A DNA stretch of 64,000 nt, from assembly GCA_028279405.1 (NCBI GenBank), contig JANQNU010000036.1, forward strand, positions 124,001 through 188,000. The letters run 5' to 3'. Shown here piece by piece: positions 20,518 through 28,638 of the stretch (its first letter is position 1; every line of letters begins with the position of its first letter). Source of the DNA: Phycisphaerae bacterium. Lineage in GTDB: Bacteria; Planctomycetota; Phycisphaerae; UBA1845; Fen-1342. Made by a program: the position numbers and the translations under genes. The notes under the pieces were generated by a model. The model did not search any database. It had not been told where the DNA came from and worked only from the letters and a program-made list of their open reading frames with translations.

Positions 20518-23500
20518 TTAGGTACCCGTCACCAACGCCACGAAGCAGTTGATGTCGCCAATCGTCACTTTGTCGTCATTCGAACAGTCGGCGTTCAGGC
20601 GATCGCAGTCCGGGTAGGTCGATGCATATCCGGCCGGATCGATCAGTGCCTGCACAAACGGGTTGATATCGCCGACCGTGATCTGGCCATCGCAGTTCAG
20701 ATCGCCGTCCAACCCCACCGACGGACAATCGCGCGCAGTGCCATCGCCATCATCGTCGCGGCACGCGGCCCCGGCCCCCTGCCAAGTGCCCAGTATTGAA
20801 TCGCACGCCGGCTCCGACAGCGGCAGGCAGAACGTACCGGCAATACAACACGCGCCCGCTGGCGGGCAAGCGGCGATGACGCAATCGCTTCCGCCGCCGG
20901 CAAACAGCCCGGCTTGTGCAACACACTCCGTCGGATCGATGTCTTCGATGCAAACACCCGTGGCCAGGCAGCAAGCGCCGCTGACCGCACAGGTTGTGCT
21001 GTCACACAACACGTCGTCACCGGCGTATGTCCCGTCGGCATTTTCGCAGGCCATGACCGTCAGGCCGTCGGTGCACGTACCGTCAACGAAGCAGCAGGCG
21101 CCCGAGGGCTCGCACGCATCCGCGGTTCCGCTGCCGTCGAGATCTTCACAAGTGGTCTGTGGTCCGGCCCAGTTGGCGTCGACAGCAAGACAGTTGCCGA
21201 CCGGCCACTCGAGGCAGAAGCCCGTGTCGAAGCAGCAGGCGCCGGTTTGAAGGCACGGTTCTTCCGCGCAGGTAGTGCCGACGCCGAAGAAGTAACTGCC
21301 GAGTTGGTCGCAGCCGTCCGCCGTATCGATCGTGCACATTCCGTCACTATCGCAGCAGGCGCCGCTACGAACACACAAACCTGCGGTACAGGACACGTCG
21401 TCACCTTCGTAGATGCCGGCTTGTGCCGTGCACGCAGCTGCCGTGGCCACGACGCACGACTCGTCTGAAAGACAGCAGGCGCCCGTGGCTGCGGGAAGGC
21501 ATGTCTCCGCGGCGCATGGCGTCTGGTCCCCCTGGTACACGCCAGCCATTTGCTGGCAATCGTCGGCGGTCGCAATCTCGCAGCGATCGTCAGGCAGACA
21601 GCAGGCACCGCGCACGGGGCATGTAACGTTCATACAAGCGGTCGCATCACCTTCGTAGACGCCGCCGCCGGCAGTGCACGCGTCCTCCGTCAACGATTCG
21701 ATGCAGGAACCGTCGGGCTGGCAGCAGGCGCCGCGCGGCATGCAGTTGCTCGCTGCACAGCGGGAGGCGCTCCCTTGCCAGACACCGCCGGCGCTGGCGC
21801 AGTCAGCTGTCGTCGTATCGTCGTCGCACGTTCCATCGTCGCGGCAGCAGGCCCCGATCGCCGTGCAGCTTGTTTCGGCACAGGTCAGGCCGAGTTCGAA
21901 GACACCGCCGTTCTGGTCGCATTCGAATGCCGTCCGGGTCTCGTCGCAAAGCCCGTCGCGCGTGCAGCACGCCCCGGACTCGCAAACGTCCGGCGTCATG
22001 TTCTTGTTCGCGTCCTCACAGGTGGTCGCGGCGCCTTGCCAGCGTGCTCCGGCAGAGACGCAATCGCTCAACGGTAAAACGAAACAGGTGCCGTTTGCGA
22101 AGCAGCACGCACCCGCATCGGTACACGACGCGGTTGCGCAGGTCGTATCGTCGCCGCGATAGACCGCGCCGGTCGTGACGCACGCCGTGCGATCGACAGC
22201 GTCGTCGCAGATACCGCCGGCCCGACAGCAGGCACCGGTCGGAGGGCACCAGGTCGTGTCGCAGGTCGTGGCATCGCCGACATAGTTTCCGTTGAGGGCG
22301 GTGCAAGCGGTCTCGTCCAGCGCGTTCTGGCAGGTCGCATCGGGCAGACAGCAGGCGCCGAATGGGGTGCAGGTGACATCGGCGCACACCGTACCGTCGC
22401 CTTGATAGATGCCGCTGGTGGTGTCGCAGTCTGTCATCGATCGTTCGTCGCAGCCGCCTGCAGGCGTGCAACATGCACCGGTTACGGTGCAGGTGGCCAT
22501 CGCGCAGAGAACGCCTTCACCTTGGAAGATGCCGGGCTGAGCGACACAGTCGGTCGCGCTGACATTGTCCAGGCAGGCTCCGTTCGGCAGGCAGCAGGCG
22601 CCTGGCGCAGCGCAATCGACACTGTCGCAGACGGCGCCGTTTGGATCGTACGCGCCGCCTTTCTGCGTGCATTCCTCTTCCGTGAGGTCCTGGCAGTCGC
22701 CGCCCGGCAGGCAGCAGGCGGCAAAAGCGACACAGCTTGCACCCGCACATGAGGTCGAGGCTCCTTGCCAGAGGCCGTTGACTTTGTTGCATGCGGTTTC
22801 CGACGCAGCCTCGAAGCACGTTCCGTTTGGTCGACAGCATCCGCCACGCTGGCAAAGGTCCGCGACGGCATTGTTGTCGCCGTCCGCGCAATTGGTGCTG
22901 AGCCCTGCCCAGATGCCTCCGGCACCGGCGCAGTCCGCTTCGGAGAGCAACAGACAGAATCCGTTGAAACAGCAGGCGCCGTCGGCTTCGCACGCGTCCG
23001 GCACGCCGTCGGCGAGTCCCTCGACGATGTATGCGGCCCCCGCATTGCCGGCCGGCGTATCGTTCTGCGGTCCGCCGACCAGGATCCGATCGGCGCGGGC
23101 GTCGATACTGGCGCCGAACCAGTCTCCGCCTCCGCTGTCGGCGGCATTAAGTTTGCCGGTCAGGCTCCATCGGTCGTTCGTGCGACGATAAACGTACACG
23201 GCGCCAGTGGTGTCAGCGCTACGTGCGCCGGCGAAAAGGAGATCGCCGTGCACGTCCAGCGAGACGCCGAACGCAGTAGCGCCGCTCTGGTCAGGCGGTT
23301 CGAGTGTTTGCTGAAGCGTCCAGTCTCCGGTGTCGTTGGTGTAGAGATGAACACGGCCGGTCGCGTTTCCGATTTCGCCGACCGCGAGCGTGTCGGCGTC
23401 GATCGCGACAGCGGTTCCGAACAACCCTCCGACGCTGGGGGTCGGTGGATCGATTCGCGTGCCGGTGTCCCACGTGGCGCCGTCGTGGGAGAAGATGTAC

Positions 23501-24222
23501 GCCGACCCGGCATCACTCGTGGCGCCGACGTTGTGGAGTTGAGCGCCGACGACGACACGTGCGTCTTCGACGGCCACAGCGATTCCGAACAAATCATCGG
23601 TTGCACCGTCGGCCGCTACCAGTTTCGCTTCCTGCTGCCACGTGCCGCCAACGTCGCGGAAAACGTAGGCAGCCCCGCGTCCGTCGGCGCCGGAAGCGCC
23701 GCCAACGACGAGCGTACCCTTGATTGCGACCGACTCGCCGAGGAAGGCCGACGCGCCGGCATCGTCCGCAGTCAGCTTGCGGAGCTGTGCCCAGGATTGC
23801 CCGTCGTGCCCGAACAAGTAGATTGCGCCGCGGCCGTCGAATACGCCGGTATTGTCGGCGTTTCGCGCCCCGACCACGGCTGTCGCGTTGTCGATTGCGA
23901 GCGACCAGCCGAAGAGCGCCAGTGGCTGCGGATCGGTCGGTGCCAGTTGTTGCGTGATGCTCCAGGTCCCCGGCGGATCCTCGGCGAATGCGTAGACTGT
24001 CCCGGCGTTGTTGCCCTGGTCGTCGTCGAAGTAAGCACCGACGAGCAGCCTGCCGTCAGTCAGGCCGACTGCTCGTCCGAAACGATCGCCGCCGGCAACG
24101 TCGGGTGCGTCGAGGCGCACAGCCGACGTATCGGTGCAGACCGGTGTTTTCCCAGCATGCACGATCGGCGTGAGAAGCAAGGGCAACAGGATCACGATCG
24201 ACCTTCGGCTGGTTGCGCGCAT
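20518..24222 (-). CDS. Secreted FG-GAP protein with 18 Cys-rich repeats and dockerin-like tail
   Basis: 1234-aa exported protein. ATG 24222 is chosen over 24252 because it opens a clean Sec leader (MRATSRRSIVILLPLLLTPI, cut after VHA) with GGAA upstream. Residues ~25-410 are FG-GAP-type propeller repeats (for example GGDRFGRAVGLTDGRLLVGA). From about residue 415 to 1160, 18 tandem units of about 41 residues follow, each opening GACC (units 2 and 3 vary) and holding six cysteines in the order CC-C-C-C-C with a G-x-Y/W-x-G core. The tail has a dockerin-like pair (DLNCDGQITVGDINPF and NDDKVTIGDINCF). Disulfides within each unit are likely. Adhesion or matrix binding is a guess. Confidence 0.82.
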   Translation of the reverse strand: MRATSRRSIVILLPLLLTPIVHAGKTPVCTDTSAVRLDAPDVAGGDRFGRAVGLTDGRLLVGAYFDDDQGNNAGTVYAFAEDPPGTWSITQQLAPTDPQPLALFGWSLAIDNATAVVGARNADNTGVFDGRGAIYLFGHDGQSWAQLRKLTADDAGASAFLGESVAIKGTLVVGGASGADGRGAAYVFRDVGGTWQQEAKLVAADGATDDLFGIAVAVEDARVVVGAQLHNVGATSDAGSAYIFSHDGATWDTGTRIDPPTPSVGGLFGTAVAIDADTLAVGEIGNATGRVHLYTNDTGDWTLQQTLEPPDQSGATAFGVSLDVHGDLLFAGARSADTTGAVYVYRRTNDRWSLTGKLNAADSGGGDWFGASIDARADRILVGGPQNDTPAGNAGAAYIVEGLADGVPDACEADGACCFNGFCLLLSEADCAGAGGIWAGLSTNCADGDNNAVADLCQRGGCCRPNGTCFEAASETACNKVNGLWQGASTSCAGASCVAFAACCLPGGDCQDLTEEECTQKGGAYDPNGAVCDSVDCAAPGACCLPNGACLDNVSATDCVAQPGIFQGEGVLCAMATCTVTGACCTPAGGCDERSMTDCDTTSGIYQGDGTVCADVTCTPFGACCLPDATCQNALDETACTALNGNYVGDATTCDTTWCPPTGACCRAGGICDDAVDRTACVTTGAVYRGDDTTCATASCTDAGACCFANGTCFVLPLSDCVSAGARWQGAATTCEDANKNMTPDVCESGACCTRDGLCDETRTAFECDQNGGVFELGLTCAETSCTAIGACCRDDGTCDDDTTTADCASAGGVWQGSASRCAASNCMPRGACCQPDGSCIESLTEDACTAGGGVYEGDATACMNVTCPVRGACCLPDDRCEIATADDCQQMAGVYQGDQTPCAAETCLPAATGACCLSDESCVVATAAACTAQAGIYEGDDVSCTAGLCVRSGACCDSDGMCTIDTADGCDQLGSYFFGVGTTCAEEPCLQTGACCFDTGFCLEWPVGNCLAVDANWAGPQTTCEDLDGSGTADACEPSGACCFVDGTCTDGLTVMACENADGTYAGDDVLCDSTTCAVSGACCLATGVCIEDIDPTECVAQAGLFAGGGSDCVIAACPPAGACCIAGTFCLPLSEPACDSILGTWQGAGAACRDDDGDGTARDCPSVGLDGDLNCDGQITVGDINPFVQALIDPAGYASTYPDCDRLNADCSNDDKVTIGDINCFVALVTGT

Positions 24223-24463
24223 ACGGGTTCCATGGTGCTTGGTTGAACACATTATTCCTTGTTATCGGGGAGTTTGCGCGACCCGATGCCGCACTCGGCG
24301 TGCCGTGCGCCGTTTCGGCGCCGACGCCGATGGTGAGTGGCGCAACTCTTGCGCGGCGTCAAGCCGATACGAGGCAAGTAGTGTCCTTCATTCCTCGAAG
24401 GGAACGCACCCCATGGTCGCTGGTAGCAAGCTACCCGTGCCACCCGTTCGTCAAGCTTGCCGA
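24223..24463. repeat. Intergenic region with repeat fragments
   Basis: Contains the palindrome GGTAGC-AA-GCTACC (24422-24435) followed by the GTGCCACCCG end that also closes both MITE-like units near 48.7 kb. It also holds the half-site GGAACGCACC (24401-24410) of the palindrome complete at 29473 and 49009. No gene is seen. Confidence 0.55.
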
Positions 24464-27283
24464 TCACTCCACGCGGTCGGCGGGCAGCAGCACGTACGCC
24501 ACGCCGCCGGTGGCCTGGAGCCAGACGCGGTCGAGATCCTCGCGGTAATAGGTCAGCCGACCGTCCTTTGGTGGGGCGACGGCGGGGTCGTTCACGAGCA
24601 CGTTTCCAGCAGCGTCGAAGCCGGTGATCACCAGCAGGTGGCCTGCGGTCTTCTTGTAAGGGGCGTTTCGTAGCATTCCTTCTTGTGGCGCGCGGATCGA
24701 AATGATCAACGGCTGGCCCTTGTGGATCATGGTGGCGACGTCGTCCCAGTTCGAGAAGCGCGTCAGGTAACCGGGCACGCCGAAGGAGTAGGCGGCTTGA
24801 ACGCAGCGCGGCCAGTTTCCGTAGATGTCATGAGTTGCATCGTAGGCGCGCTGCGCGACCGTTTCGGTTGGTTGACGGACGCCGCGAAATTCCATGACCA
24901 TTGCCACTGAAGTCGGACTGCAGATCCGTCCTGCGATGTCCGCCGATGCACTGCGCTGGCTGCGGAATGGTACGGGCAGGCGGCGCGGCACGACGTCGCG
25001 CGGCACGGCGTTCTGTGGCGCGGATTCGGACGGGCCGCAATCAGGGATTCCGAGTGTGTCGCTCGTGCATGTAGTGATGCGTCGGATCGCGATCGTGACG
25101 GGTTCGGGCGCGTTCGACCAGCCGAGGACTCGGTATTGCAGCCGATCGAGAAGCTGTTCGGACCGGAAATAGTCGACATCGATCTTACCGAGGTCGGACG
25201 CAACCGTCGGCATTGTCTCGGAGGGCACATTGCCCCAATCGCCGACACGCATCCAAGGGGACCAGATATCGTCGTTTACGCGCCCGACGCGCAGCTCGAT
25301 CGCTGCACCGGCACCGGCCGGAACGTCGAGATTCCATGACAGCAACGCCTCGTTGAACGCGCGTTTCGGTTTGAGGATTGGTCCTGGCGTCACCGTTTCA
25401 CGTTTCGCGGTGATCTGCGATCCGGTTTCCGCGACGATCAACTCGTGGCGCGCCGGGGCGGGCTTGGATTCCGGACAGAGGAAGTCGTCGAGATCGGCGG
25501 CCATGCGTTCGAGGTACTCCTGTCCGCGGGGATGGTGGGTCGCGCCGGCCAGCAGATACACGTGGTCTCCGTGGCGCACGCGGGCCGTGTCGAGGTGCCA
25601 GTTCTCCCACAAGCCACTCTTGCGGATGATGGTCAGATCCCGTCCGTTCAGTCCGCGGACGAACTTGGTGTTGTGGAAGTCCAGGTCGGGTGCGCGAAAA
25701 ATCTGGCGAAGTTTCGCGGAAACGCGCGGATTGACGAGCTTGCCCTGTTCCATGAGCAGGTAGTAGCGCAGGCACTGACGAACGGTGACGGCGTGCGAGT
25801 GGTCCCCGACCGGGTCGCCGACGCGCGGCGTGTCAAGGCCGTAGTGCTTGCCGCACCAGAGCCCGCCGCCGGTATCTTCGTCATAGAGACCATACTTGTC
25901 GTCGCGCACCATTTTCTGCAGGAAATCGAGTCCGACGATCTGGCTGTACTTGGCTGCCAGCTCGTTGTCGGAGCGTTTGATAACCTGCATCAGCTCCAGT
26001 TCGGTCTGCGCGTCGAGCGTTTGGAGCCGCTGGAGATCCTGTTGGAAATAGCCGGCCACGATGCAGATTTTCGGTACGCTGGCACCGTAGAAGACCGCGT
26101 CCGGCCGCAGGGCGGCGTAGCGCAGTTGTGTGAGATCGAGTACGGCAAAGGCGCGGTGCTTTTCGTCCATCGTCAGTGCGGCGCGGGCGCGTCCGTCGGC
26201 CTTCTCCATCGCCAGTCGCAGGGCGTCGTCTTGCGCGGCGTCGGCGGGCAAGCGGAACGACTGCAGTTGCATGGCGTGCGACCAGTCCCGGGGGAAGCCC
26301 GGCTCGTGCAGCGGCCAAGCGGTGATTTCCTTCGCAAGCGACTTGGGGTTCATCCGCGTGGCCCGTGGTTCCCTCCGGGCGCGCGCCATGCGCACCTCGG
26401 CGTCCGGTCGCAGGCGCAGGATTTTGATTCCGACGCAGCGCTTGTCGGACTCGAGGTAGTCGATGAGCGGCTCTTCGCGGACTGTCGGTCTTGCCGAGTG
26501 AAGAAAGTTGACCGAGTCGCCATGCGCGATCAGGCCGGTGTGACCGCACCATTGTGCGTCGCTATCGCCGCGAACGATGTTGACGAAGTCGGCGTCTTGC
26601 AGCTCGTCGAGGATCTCGGGCACGCGCTGCTTGGGAACATAGCTGTCGCTGATGGGTTCATCGGGCACATCCTGACCGATGCCGAATCGTGCAAAGAACC
26701 GCGCCCGGCGTAAGGTCTGCGTGAGCGGGACGTGCACCTGGCCGTTACCGAGTCGGGTCGTGATATCCTCGAAAAGGAAGTCGTTGTTGCGGTTCCACTC
26801 CGCGACGGTGTAGTGATTGCGCGTGAGCATCCCGATCTGCCCATCGCGGTAGCGGATGCGCTGCAGGTTGGCAAGGAACTCCCACCAGTCGTCCGCCATT
26901 GCCATGGCATACATATGTTCGGCGTGTGTCAGACAGTCGCTGCGCGTGAGGCAGTAGAGTGGATCGGGATCGTGCCCTTCGAACGGGAATTCTCCGAGTA
27001 AGTAGATCTCATAGGGCTGGCCGATGTTCTTGCGCGCCAGGTGCACGATTCGGCGTTTGACATCGCGCTCACGGGCGTGCAAGGACCGAAGGTAGCGATC
27101 CACCTCGGCTTCGCTGAAGGTGTACAGTGGTCGCGCCTCCAGCGGACGGCTGTCCGCCGTCTGTGCAACCCGTTCGGGGAGGTGCGGCGCCTCCGAGGTC
27201 GACGTCTCTCGCCGACCGGATGCGCAACCCACCAGCGCGGCCATTCCCAGACCGACGATCATCCACGCCCGACGATGGACCAT
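24464..27283 (-). CDS. Lipoprotein fusing DUF1460, class A beta-lactamase-like and C39-like peptidase modules
   Basis: 939-aa probable cell-wall-acting lipoprotein. ATG 27283 follows AAGGAG by 7 bases and opens a lipoprotein leader ending LVGCAS. Module 1 (about residues 60-320) resembles DUF1460 NlpC/P60-type amidases: Cys117 in SDCLTHAEH and His248 in CGHTGLI. Module 2 (about 360-610) has all three serine beta-lactamase/PBP motifs: SVPK (Ser402, Lys405), SDN (438-440) and KSG (555-557). Module 3 (about 765-935) resembles C39-like cysteine peptidases: Cys788 in RICSPTSVAM, His882 in AGHLLVITGF, then NDPA. All catalytic residues appear intact. A Pro/Gly-rich beta region separates modules 2 and 3. 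Peptidoglycan stem peptides are the likely substrate, by inference. Confidence 0.85.
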   Translation of the reverse strand: MVHRRAWMIVGLGMAALVGCASGRRETSTSEAPHLPERVAQTADSRPLEARPLYTFSEAEVDRYLRSLHARERDVKRRIVHLARKNIGQPYEIYLLGEFPFEGHDPDPLYCLTRSDCLTHAEHMYAMAMADDWWEFLANLQRIRYRDGQIGMLTRNHYTVAEWNRNNDFLFEDITTRLGNGQVHVPLTQTLRRARFFARFGIGQDVPDEPISDSYVPKQRVPEILDELQDADFVNIVRGDSDAQWCGHTGLIAHGDSVNFLHSARPTVREEPLIDYLESDKRCVGIKILRLRPDAEVRMARARREPRATRMNPKSLAKEITAWPLHEPGFPRDWSHAMQLQSFRLPADAAQDDALRLAMEKADGRARAALTMDEKHRAFAVLDLTQLRYAALRPDAVFYGASVPKICIVAGYFQQDLQRLQTLDAQTELELMQVIKRSDNELAAKYSQIVGLDFLQKMVRDDKYGLYDEDTGGGLWCGKHYGLDTPRVGDPVGDHSHAVTVRQCLRYYLLMEQGKLVNPRVSAKLRQIFRAPDLDFHNTKFVRGLNGRDLTIIRKSGLWENWHLDTARVRHGDHVYLLAGATHHPRGQEYLERMAADLDDFLCPESKPAPARHELIVAETGSQITAKRETVTPGPILKPKRAFNEALLSWNLDVPAGAGAAIELRVGRVNDDIWSPWMRVGDWGNVPSETMPTVASDLGKIDVDYFRSEQLLDRLQYRVLGWSNAPEPVTIAIRRITTCTSDTLGIPDCGPSESAPQNAVPRDVVPRRLPVPFRSQRSASADIAGRICSPTSVAMVMEFRGVRQPTETVAQRAYDATHDIYGNWPRCVQAAYSFGVPGYLTRFSNWDDVATMIHKGQPLIISIRAPQEGMLRNAPYKKTAGHLLVITGFDAAGNVLVNDPAVAPPKDGRLTYYREDLDRVWLQATGGVAYVLLPADRVE

Positions 27284-27334: not shown

Positions 27335-27384
27335 TACGCTTGCCATGATAACGGATGGTATCCGCCGCTTGCAGGAGGCAAACC

Positions 27385-28638
27385 GTGGCGAAATCGGCAC
27401 GTAAGACGACCAAGAAGCCAGCTTCTCGAAAGCCAGCGACCAACGGCAAGGCGACGTCCGCCAAGACCGGGCGCTCCGCGTCCGGCAAATCCAGTGCGGC
27501 GAGACGAAAGGTCGACCGGGTGGCCGCAGGTCGGCGAATCACGGATATGGCCTCATCGATCGCGGGGCTGGTCGACGGCGAGAGCGATCCGTTCATCGAA
27601 ATCCCCTCGCGCACGCTTAGCAACGTGCAGTTCAACGAGAAGCGCGGCATCATCGAGCTGCTCGACGGCAAACAGAAGCGATTCTTCTTCAGCCTGCTCG
27701 GTCGGCGAAAAGGTGAGGGCAGCCAGGCAAAGAAGTTCATGCAGACCGTCCGCGTCGCCGAGGTATGCAAGCGGCTGATCGACGCGACGGATTCCACCAG
27801 CATCCGTGATCTCTTCTACAACCTCAAGATGCCGATCAAGACGCTCGATGGCAAGCCGGCCAAGGAGCTGATCTTCAACGAGCAGGCCGAGTCCGACCCG
27901 GTGATCGAGGACGTCGAGGTGACCGTCAATGCGCTCCGCGAAGAGCTGGGCGTGCACGCGGAGCCGAAAGGCGCGATGGTCGGGCCGATGACGATCGTCG
28001 ACGATGGCGACACCATCGACCTGACCACCATGGGCTCCGGCGGATGGCAGGTACCGAGCATCGTCGAGCCCAAGGTGATCCAGTTCAAGAAGTGCAGCGC
28101 CAAGTTCATCCTGCTGATCGAGAAGGGTGCGGTCTGGCAGCGCTTCAACAAGGACCGCTTCTGGCAGAAGCACAAGTGCATGATCATCCACGGCGGGGGC
28201 CAGCCGCCGCGCGGCGTGCGGCGATTGTGCTATCGGATGCACGCCGAACTGAAGCTGCCGTTGTATGTGCTCGTGGATAATGACCCGTGGGGTTACTACA
28301 TCTACAGCGTCATCAAGCAGGGCTCGATCAATCTTGCGTTCGAGAGCCAGCGGATGGCGATCCCCGCGGCGCGTTTCGTCGGCATGAGCAGCTTCGATGC
28401 GATGGAATTCGACATTCCGGCGCACGTGCCGATGCCGCTGACCGATGAGGATCGTCGACGGGCACGCGAGATCCGCAACTACCCCTGGTTCCAAAGCCGC
28501 GCCTGGCAGCGCGAGATCAAGCGAATGGAATCGCTCGGCGTAAAGCTCGAGTTGGAAGCACTCAGCAACAAACACTTCAGCTTCATCACCGAAGAGTACC
28601 TGCCGCGCAAGCTCAAGAGCCGCAAGTGGCTGGACTGA
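27385..28638 (+). CDS. top6A: DNA topoisomerase VI subunit A (Spo11/Top6A family)
   Basis: Catalytic DNA-cleaving subunit of a type IIB topoisomerase. GTG 27385 is chosen because AGGAGG (27373-27378) lies 6 bases upstream. The 417-aa protein opens with ~55 Lys/Arg/Ala/Ser-rich residues, then a winged-helix CAP domain with catalytic Tyr145 in SIRDLFYNLK, and a Toprim domain with Glu246 (LIEKGAVWQRF), IHGGGQPPRG and the LVDNDPWG metal site (Asp298, Asp300). Spacing and motifs fit archaeal Top6A. Bacterial topo VI is uncommon and normally needs a GHKL ATPase subunit B, which is not seen in this window. The basic N-tail is an extension relative to the core fold and may aid DNA binding. Confidence 0.9.
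   Translation: MAKSARKTTKKPASRKPATNGKATSAKTGRSASGKSSAARRKVDRVAAGRRITDMASSIAGLVDGESDPFIEIPSRTLSNVQFNEKRGIIELLDGKQKRFFFSLLGRRKGEGSQAKKFMQTVRVAEVCKRLIDATDSTSIRDLFYNLKMPIKTLDGKPAKELIFNEQAESDPVIEDVEVTVNALREELGVHAEPKGAMVGPMTIVDDGDTIDLTTMGSGGWQVPSIVEPKVIQFKKCSAKFILLIEKGAVWQRFNKDRFWQKHKCMIIHGGGQPPRGVRRLCYRMHAELKLPLYVLVDNDPWGYYIYSVIKQGSINLAFESQRMAIPAARFVGMSSFDAMEFDIPAHVPMPLTDEDRRRAREIRNYPWFQSRAWQREIKRMESLGVKLELEALSNKHFSFITEEYLPRKLKSRKWLD

Follow-up and report, generated by a model that had tools for sequence, protein, structure and literature searches.

A lone top6A gene in a Phycisphaerae bacterium and its unlinked top6B partner: a probable topoisomerase VI whose subunits differ in history

When the gene for one half of a two-subunit enzyme stands by itself, it invites the question of what, if anything, its product works with. 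Such a gene is top6A, for the DNA-cleaving A subunit of topoisomerase VI, in a stretch of 64,000 nucleotides from a Phycisphaerae bacterium (assembly GCA_028279405.1, contig JANQNU010000036.1, positions 124,001 to 188,000 of the forward strand; hereafter the window): no top6B was found next to it or elsewhere within the window. Is Top6A here an orphan, part of some other complex, a remnant, or half of a conventional enzyme? The last is very probably the case, with the window gene providing the cleaving A subunit of an ordinary A2B2 topoisomerase VI, most likely a decatenase, whose B subunit is encoded elsewhere in the genome. In such an enzyme two Top6A subunits would bind one duplex, Tyr145 of each would act with a metal site of Glu246, Asp298 and Asp300 to make a double-strand break with 2-nt overhangs, and the ATP-driven closure of two Top6B subunits would pass a second duplex through that break.

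The open reading frame (ORF) in the window, which begins with GTG at 27385 and is closed by a stop at 28638, encodes an intact, full-length Top6A with every active-site residue present. Its features, and the partner gene discussed below, are as follows.

27385..28638, + strand: top6A, topoisomerase VI subunit A, 417 amino acids; an ORF with profile and structure matches, between divergent and convergent neighbours
27373..27378, + strand: Shine-Dalgarno-like AGGAGG, 6 nt 5' of the GTG start, read off the sequence
27385..27510, + strand: Lys/Ala/Ser-rich N-terminal extension of Top6A, about 40-42 residues, after which the PDB matches start
27817..27819, + strand: codon of the catalytic Tyr145 (IRDLFYN) in the winged-helix/CAP domain, invariant in aligned Top6A
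28120..28122, + strand: codon of Toprim Glu246 (LLIEKG), invariant in aligned Top6A
28276..28284, + strand: codons of Toprim D298-N-D300 (VDNDPWG), the metal-binding DxD, both Asp invariant
G000:C81:20006-22009 (= L003:1198-3201), + strand: top6B, intact ORF of 667 amino acids, found by profile search on another contig than top6A

Pfam matches to TOP6A-Spo11_Toprim (E=3.8e-57), TP6A_N (2.8e-15) and Topo_VI_alpha (4e-6) place the winged-helix, Toprim and small all-beta topoisomerase VI alpha domains in the correct order, and the NCBIfam model NF003333, 'topoisomerase subunit A', scores 501.8 bits against a cut-off of 465. The matches to solved structures are decisive for the identity of the protein: the nearest is Top6A of S. 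shibatae (2zbk_A, E=3e-72), and the alignment to solved archaeal Top6A spans the whole protein except its N-terminal extension, PDB matches starting at about residue 44-53 in a 427-residue reading, that is 34-43 of the 417-residue Top6A. The catalytic tyrosine of the winged helix, the Toprim glutamate and the DxD motif that together mark a type IIB A subunit are all found, and Tyr145, Glu246, Asp298 and Asp300 show no variation across 57 aligned Top6A proteins. The preliminary description of this DNA, which had named the protein, Tyr145 and the Toprim metal residues, was right on these points.

A six-frame search of the host genome (5.63 Mb in 92 contigs, 95.5% complete) returned exactly one Top6B, on contig C81. 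It scores 522.4 bits with TIGR01052, whose cut-off is 380.7 bits, and 201 bits with PF09239, and aligns with Top6B of M. mazei (2q2e_B) over residues 96-584 at 535 bits. The GHKL ATPase motifs (EAVDNSLDA, DNGPGI, QQGIGIS), the lysine loop of the transducer (SESKEA) and the motif DWRNY can all be read in it, and its H2TH region was judged solely by the continuous alignment with 2q2e_B. The same genome thus encodes a partner in which the GHKL, H2TH and transducer parts are all represented, so that Top6A is not an orphan; the topoisomerase VI gene set is apparently complete, with top6A and top6B merely unlinked. This bears out the earlier suggestions that the bacterial Top6A has its B subunit outside the window and might pair with a distant one. 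An orphan, or a Spo11-like complex in place of the enzyme, was rejected on the strength of the full Top6B.

An alternative to the ordinary enzyme is that top6A is a redundant or decaying remnant of a transferred topoisomerase VI. Its history, set out below, does depart from those of the species and of Top6B, as a remnant's might, yet the ORF is intact, carries a ribosome-binding site and an invariant active site, occurs in a single copy and shares 69-83% identity, along almost all of its length, with the homologues of related genomes, while no alternative A subunit is available to Top6B. We find this explanation scarcely credible. The idea of a redundant copy was rejected in view of the sole Top6A in the genome, and the normal top6AB operon elsewhere that had been considered as an alternative was not found among the host's one A and one B gene.

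The separation of the two genes is not peculiar to this host. Among 198 Phycisphaerae genomes, top6A was found in 118, counted by matches above the cut-off, and top6B in 119. Of the 121 genomes with at least one of the two genes, 116 had both; two had A only (each 73% complete), three had B only and 77 had neither. Topoisomerase VI is therefore present in about 60% of the class genomes sampled, and the earlier description of bacterial copies as rare no longer holds for this class. The gene for B lies directly 5' of that for A in most genomes of families f7, f10 and f17, in all of f13, f20, f21 and f23, and in about half of f4, whereas the two are distant or on separate contigs in nearly all of f1, the host's own family, and in f2, f14, f16, f18 and f22. 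Within f1, about 206 kb separate the two on a single contig of the genome G101, and G106 has top6A followed by top6B at a distance of about 4.5 kb. Complete single- or few-contig genomes of other families also have an unlinked pair (for example G002, G018, G038, G056, G063 and G069); since several of the split cases are single-contig assemblies, the separation is not an effect of assembly. Unlinked top6A and top6B are the rule in several families, the host's included.

It is against this background that another alternative has to be weighed, namely that Top6A works without Top6B, or with a partner like that of Spo11 and MTOPVIB (TOPOVIBL), as a maker of programmed breaks. The two genes are indeed non-adjacent in the host, and eukaryotic Spo11 pairs with shortened B-like partners (PMC11746154). 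Against it stand the single-copy, full-length Top6B with its intact ATPase motifs, the almost unfailing co-occurrence of A and B in the class, and the adjacency of the same genes, B then A, in other families. A Spo11-type system, which shares homology in the A subunit, would have a B-like partner without H2TH and often without a working ATPase; unlike TOPOVIBL, the host protein has both the H2TH region and the ATPase motifs, along with the transducer lysine. The different complex that the preliminary description had entertained is accordingly most improbable, and an apparent oddity is removed.

What would an ordinary topoisomerase VI do in this bacterium? One protein of the host genome matches PF00521 and carries a GyrA box, and one matches PF00204; these are its single GyrA and single GyrB, and neither ParC nor ParE was detected in the 95.5% complete assembly. 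With one gyrase and no detectable topoisomerase IV, topoisomerase VI is most likely the dedicated decatenase, and it probably untangles chromosomes beside gyrase, as topoisomerase IV does elsewhere. In the proposed role it would complement gyrase as a second type II enzyme, much as topoisomerase IV (ParC/ParE) does, although the latter is a type IIA enzyme with an A subunit built differently. Across the class, a second type IIA A subunit was present in none of the 120 genomes that carry topoisomerase VI and whose type IIA enzymes could be counted, and in 17 of the 77 genomes without topoisomerase VI (eight in f10, all eight in f19 and one in f15). Those second copies that were checked have no GyrA box, and for the majority a gene of ParE size lies only a few kb away, which makes them topoisomerase IV. 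An apparent second gyrA in the topoisomerase VI genomes G019 and G141 was rejected as topoisomerase IV, being gyrA split at contig ends. Topoisomerases VI and IV coexist in 0 of the 198 genomes, which makes the class a large natural data set on the role of bacterial topoisomerase VI, and in f10 the genomes with one or the other are intermixed on the GyrA tree. This agrees with the report that topoisomerase VI bacteria outside Pseudomonadota and Terrabacteria are without topoisomerase IV (PMC11302465), whose authors also mention, as unpublished data, that M. mazei topoisomerase VI complements an E. coli parE-ts mutant; topoisomerase VI is also reported to be a preferential decatenase (PMC8837201).

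Several points weigh against an assembled, chromosome-untangling topoisomerase VI. That A and B assemble is inferred from their sequences, as are enzyme activity and a role in chromosome segregation; the 92-contig assembly leaves the true distance between top6A and top6B unreadable and, at 95.5% completeness, may have missed parC or parE. The exclusion of topoisomerase IV by topoisomerase VI comes down to three independent contrasts on well-supported branches, in all of which the two are opposite, as expected (sign test p=0.25, not significant), and with so few supported contrasts it is suggestive and not proven. In many class genomes, moreover, topoisomerase VI and a second type IIA enzyme are both absent, so that gyrase alone can suffice. 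The small number of contrasts, and the existence of whole families without either topoisomerase, also favour the notion that topoisomerase VI is here something other than a decatenase, engaged perhaps in the relaxation of positive supercoils or in repair, and that chance in descent accounts for its absence from genomes with topoisomerase IV. We regard this as unlikely, given the complete lack of overlap in the class, the intermixing of states within f10 and the reported preference for decatenation. Two further observations concern the distribution of these enzymes: nearly all sampled genomes of f6, f8, f15 and f24 have gyrase only, and the f10 genome G080 (contigs C31, C9 and C16) has six PF00521 matches, one of which (590 bits) has a GyrA box, QRRGGRG, unlike that of its relatives; the bin may be mixed, or the genome may have additional type IIA genes.

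If the pair forms an ordinary topoisomerase VI, its two halves do not appear to have travelled together, for trees of 57 Top6A and 56 Top6B proteins conflict. In the Top6A phylogeny, a check suggested in the preliminary description, the class splits into two deep groups: one, including the window gene, falls with DPANN archaea, Myxococcales and a Kuenenia bin, and the other (f12, f16, f18, f20, f22 and part of f14) with M. jannaschii and M. mazei. A single class clade is rejected for Top6A (p=2e-7), as is a single clade for the host's order (p=3e-66), whereas the Top6B data are compatible with a single class clade (p=0.37), and in them the host's order forms one clade at 92/86. With full-length Top6B, a grouping of the methanogen-type genomes with M. 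mazei was not quite rejected by the approximately unbiased test (p 0.056); once the C-terminal tail was trimmed off and S. shibatae, with its very long branch, was left out, it was rejected (p=5e-6), and in the same trimmed analysis one genome, G095, returned to its own family. Judged by eye, the tree of RpoB and GyrA is nearer that of Top6B than that of Top6A. Taken together, the trees indicate that the class combines a single Top6B lineage with two Top6A lineages that lie far apart from each other. Of the genomes compared, G062 has two full-length rpoB genes (contigs C51 and C102), a hint of contamination or duplication, and its topoisomerase VI pair groups with f13.

The imprint of this conflict is found at the docking end of Top6B. 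Residues 551-625 separate the two Top6A types by far the most, with a divergence of 0.48-0.88 against 0.12-0.31 elsewhere in the protein, and genomes with the window's type of Top6A have 117-244 residues after the transducer lysine of Top6B, class members with the other type 82-88. Within the order, where the A-type groups cut across families, fixed Top6B differences occupy 8 of 50 columns in 551-600 and 1 of 449 in 101-550. When the distance of the B body is removed, the distance of the Top6B tail correlates with that of Top6A (partial r 0.79 for all, 0.49 for the DPANN-type set and 0.48 for the order), while control segments of Top6B give 0.30 or less, except roughly the H2TH region (0.56, 0.14 and 0.51). 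In G095 the Top6B body is nearest that of its own family (71%), and Top6A and the Top6B tail are nearest another family. Since the Top6A types come from the very data analysed here and shared descent plays no part in the permutation test, this is a pattern, not proof, of a docking end co-adapted or co-transferred with Top6A.

We lean, if only somewhat, towards the view that topoisomerase VI in Phycisphaerae is modular, with repeated replacement of the Top6A that works with a resident Top6B, both across the divide of DPANN-like and methanogen-like types and between families, each newcomer bringing or selecting a matching tail of approximately the last 60-100 residues. Top6B would then be a mosaic, its ATPase body inherited and its A-binding end exchangeable. 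A rather improbable alternative is that no exchange took place and that long branches, or faster change in A and the tail of B, produced both the conflict between trees and the tail pattern as artefacts. The outgroup branches are long, the Top6B tail is faster than the body in every comparison, and a segment corresponding roughly to the H2TH region shows comparable partial correlations in two sets out of three; yet the conflict persists between close relatives inside the order, a setting in which long outgroup branches weigh less, Top6A rejecting and Top6B showing monophyly there, and the divided affinities of G095 also speak against an artefact. Should swapping be the true account, these natural A/B hybrids with matched tails would show which residues set the specificity of A-B pairing, at the interface that became Spo11-Rec102/MTOPVIB in meiosis.

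How much of this is new can be gauged against the systems already known. Bacterial topoisomerase VI was known from 17 families by 2024, including Planctomycetota without topoisomerase IV, and at least two transfers of it have been noted (PMC11302465). The planctomycetes treated there (among them Anaerohalosphaera, Sedimentisphaera, Pirellula and Lacipirellula; Allen and Maxwell 2024) resemble the host in having Top6A, Top6B and gyrase and in the absence of topoisomerase IV; compared with the bacteria in that study, the host's genes are unlinked and its Top6A is of the DPANN-like type, and the wider sampling of a single class reveals the differing histories of A and B. No paper joining topoisomerase VI and Phycisphaerae, and no report of the subunit-swap and docking-tail pattern, was found in the part of the literature searched; that pattern is the only part that a specialist might find new. 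The topoisomerase VI of S. shibatae and M. mazei (2zbk, 2q2e) shares its domains and active-site residues with both host subunits, Top6A being nearer S. shibatae (247 bits, against 162 for M. mazei) and Top6B nearer M. mazei (535 against 310). Unlike those solved archaeal proteins, both host subunits bear basic, low-complexity N-terminal extensions, of about 95 residues in Top6B and about 40 in Top6A. Topoisomerase VIII and Mini-A, type IIB proteins of plasmids or mobile elements, take the form of a fused A-B chain or a stand-alone, mobile A subunit. The host differs from these in its separate, full-length A and B ORFs, both scoring above the curated cut-offs for topoisomerase VI.

As to its surroundings, top6A is preceded by a divergent amidase/C39-protease gene and followed by a convergent gene for a 250-residue unknown protein, and with both flanking genes on the opposite strand it looks like a transcription unit of its own. 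The divergent neighbour (24464-27283, - strand) is a 939-residue, lipoprotein-like ORF with AmiA-like amidase, beta-lactamase-like and C39-like peptidase domains. Further along on the same strand (20518-24252, -) lies a gene for a predicted secreted protein of 1244 residues, in which FG-GAP_2 repeats precede many tandem, Cys-rich units of GACC type, the end of the protein being dockerin-like.
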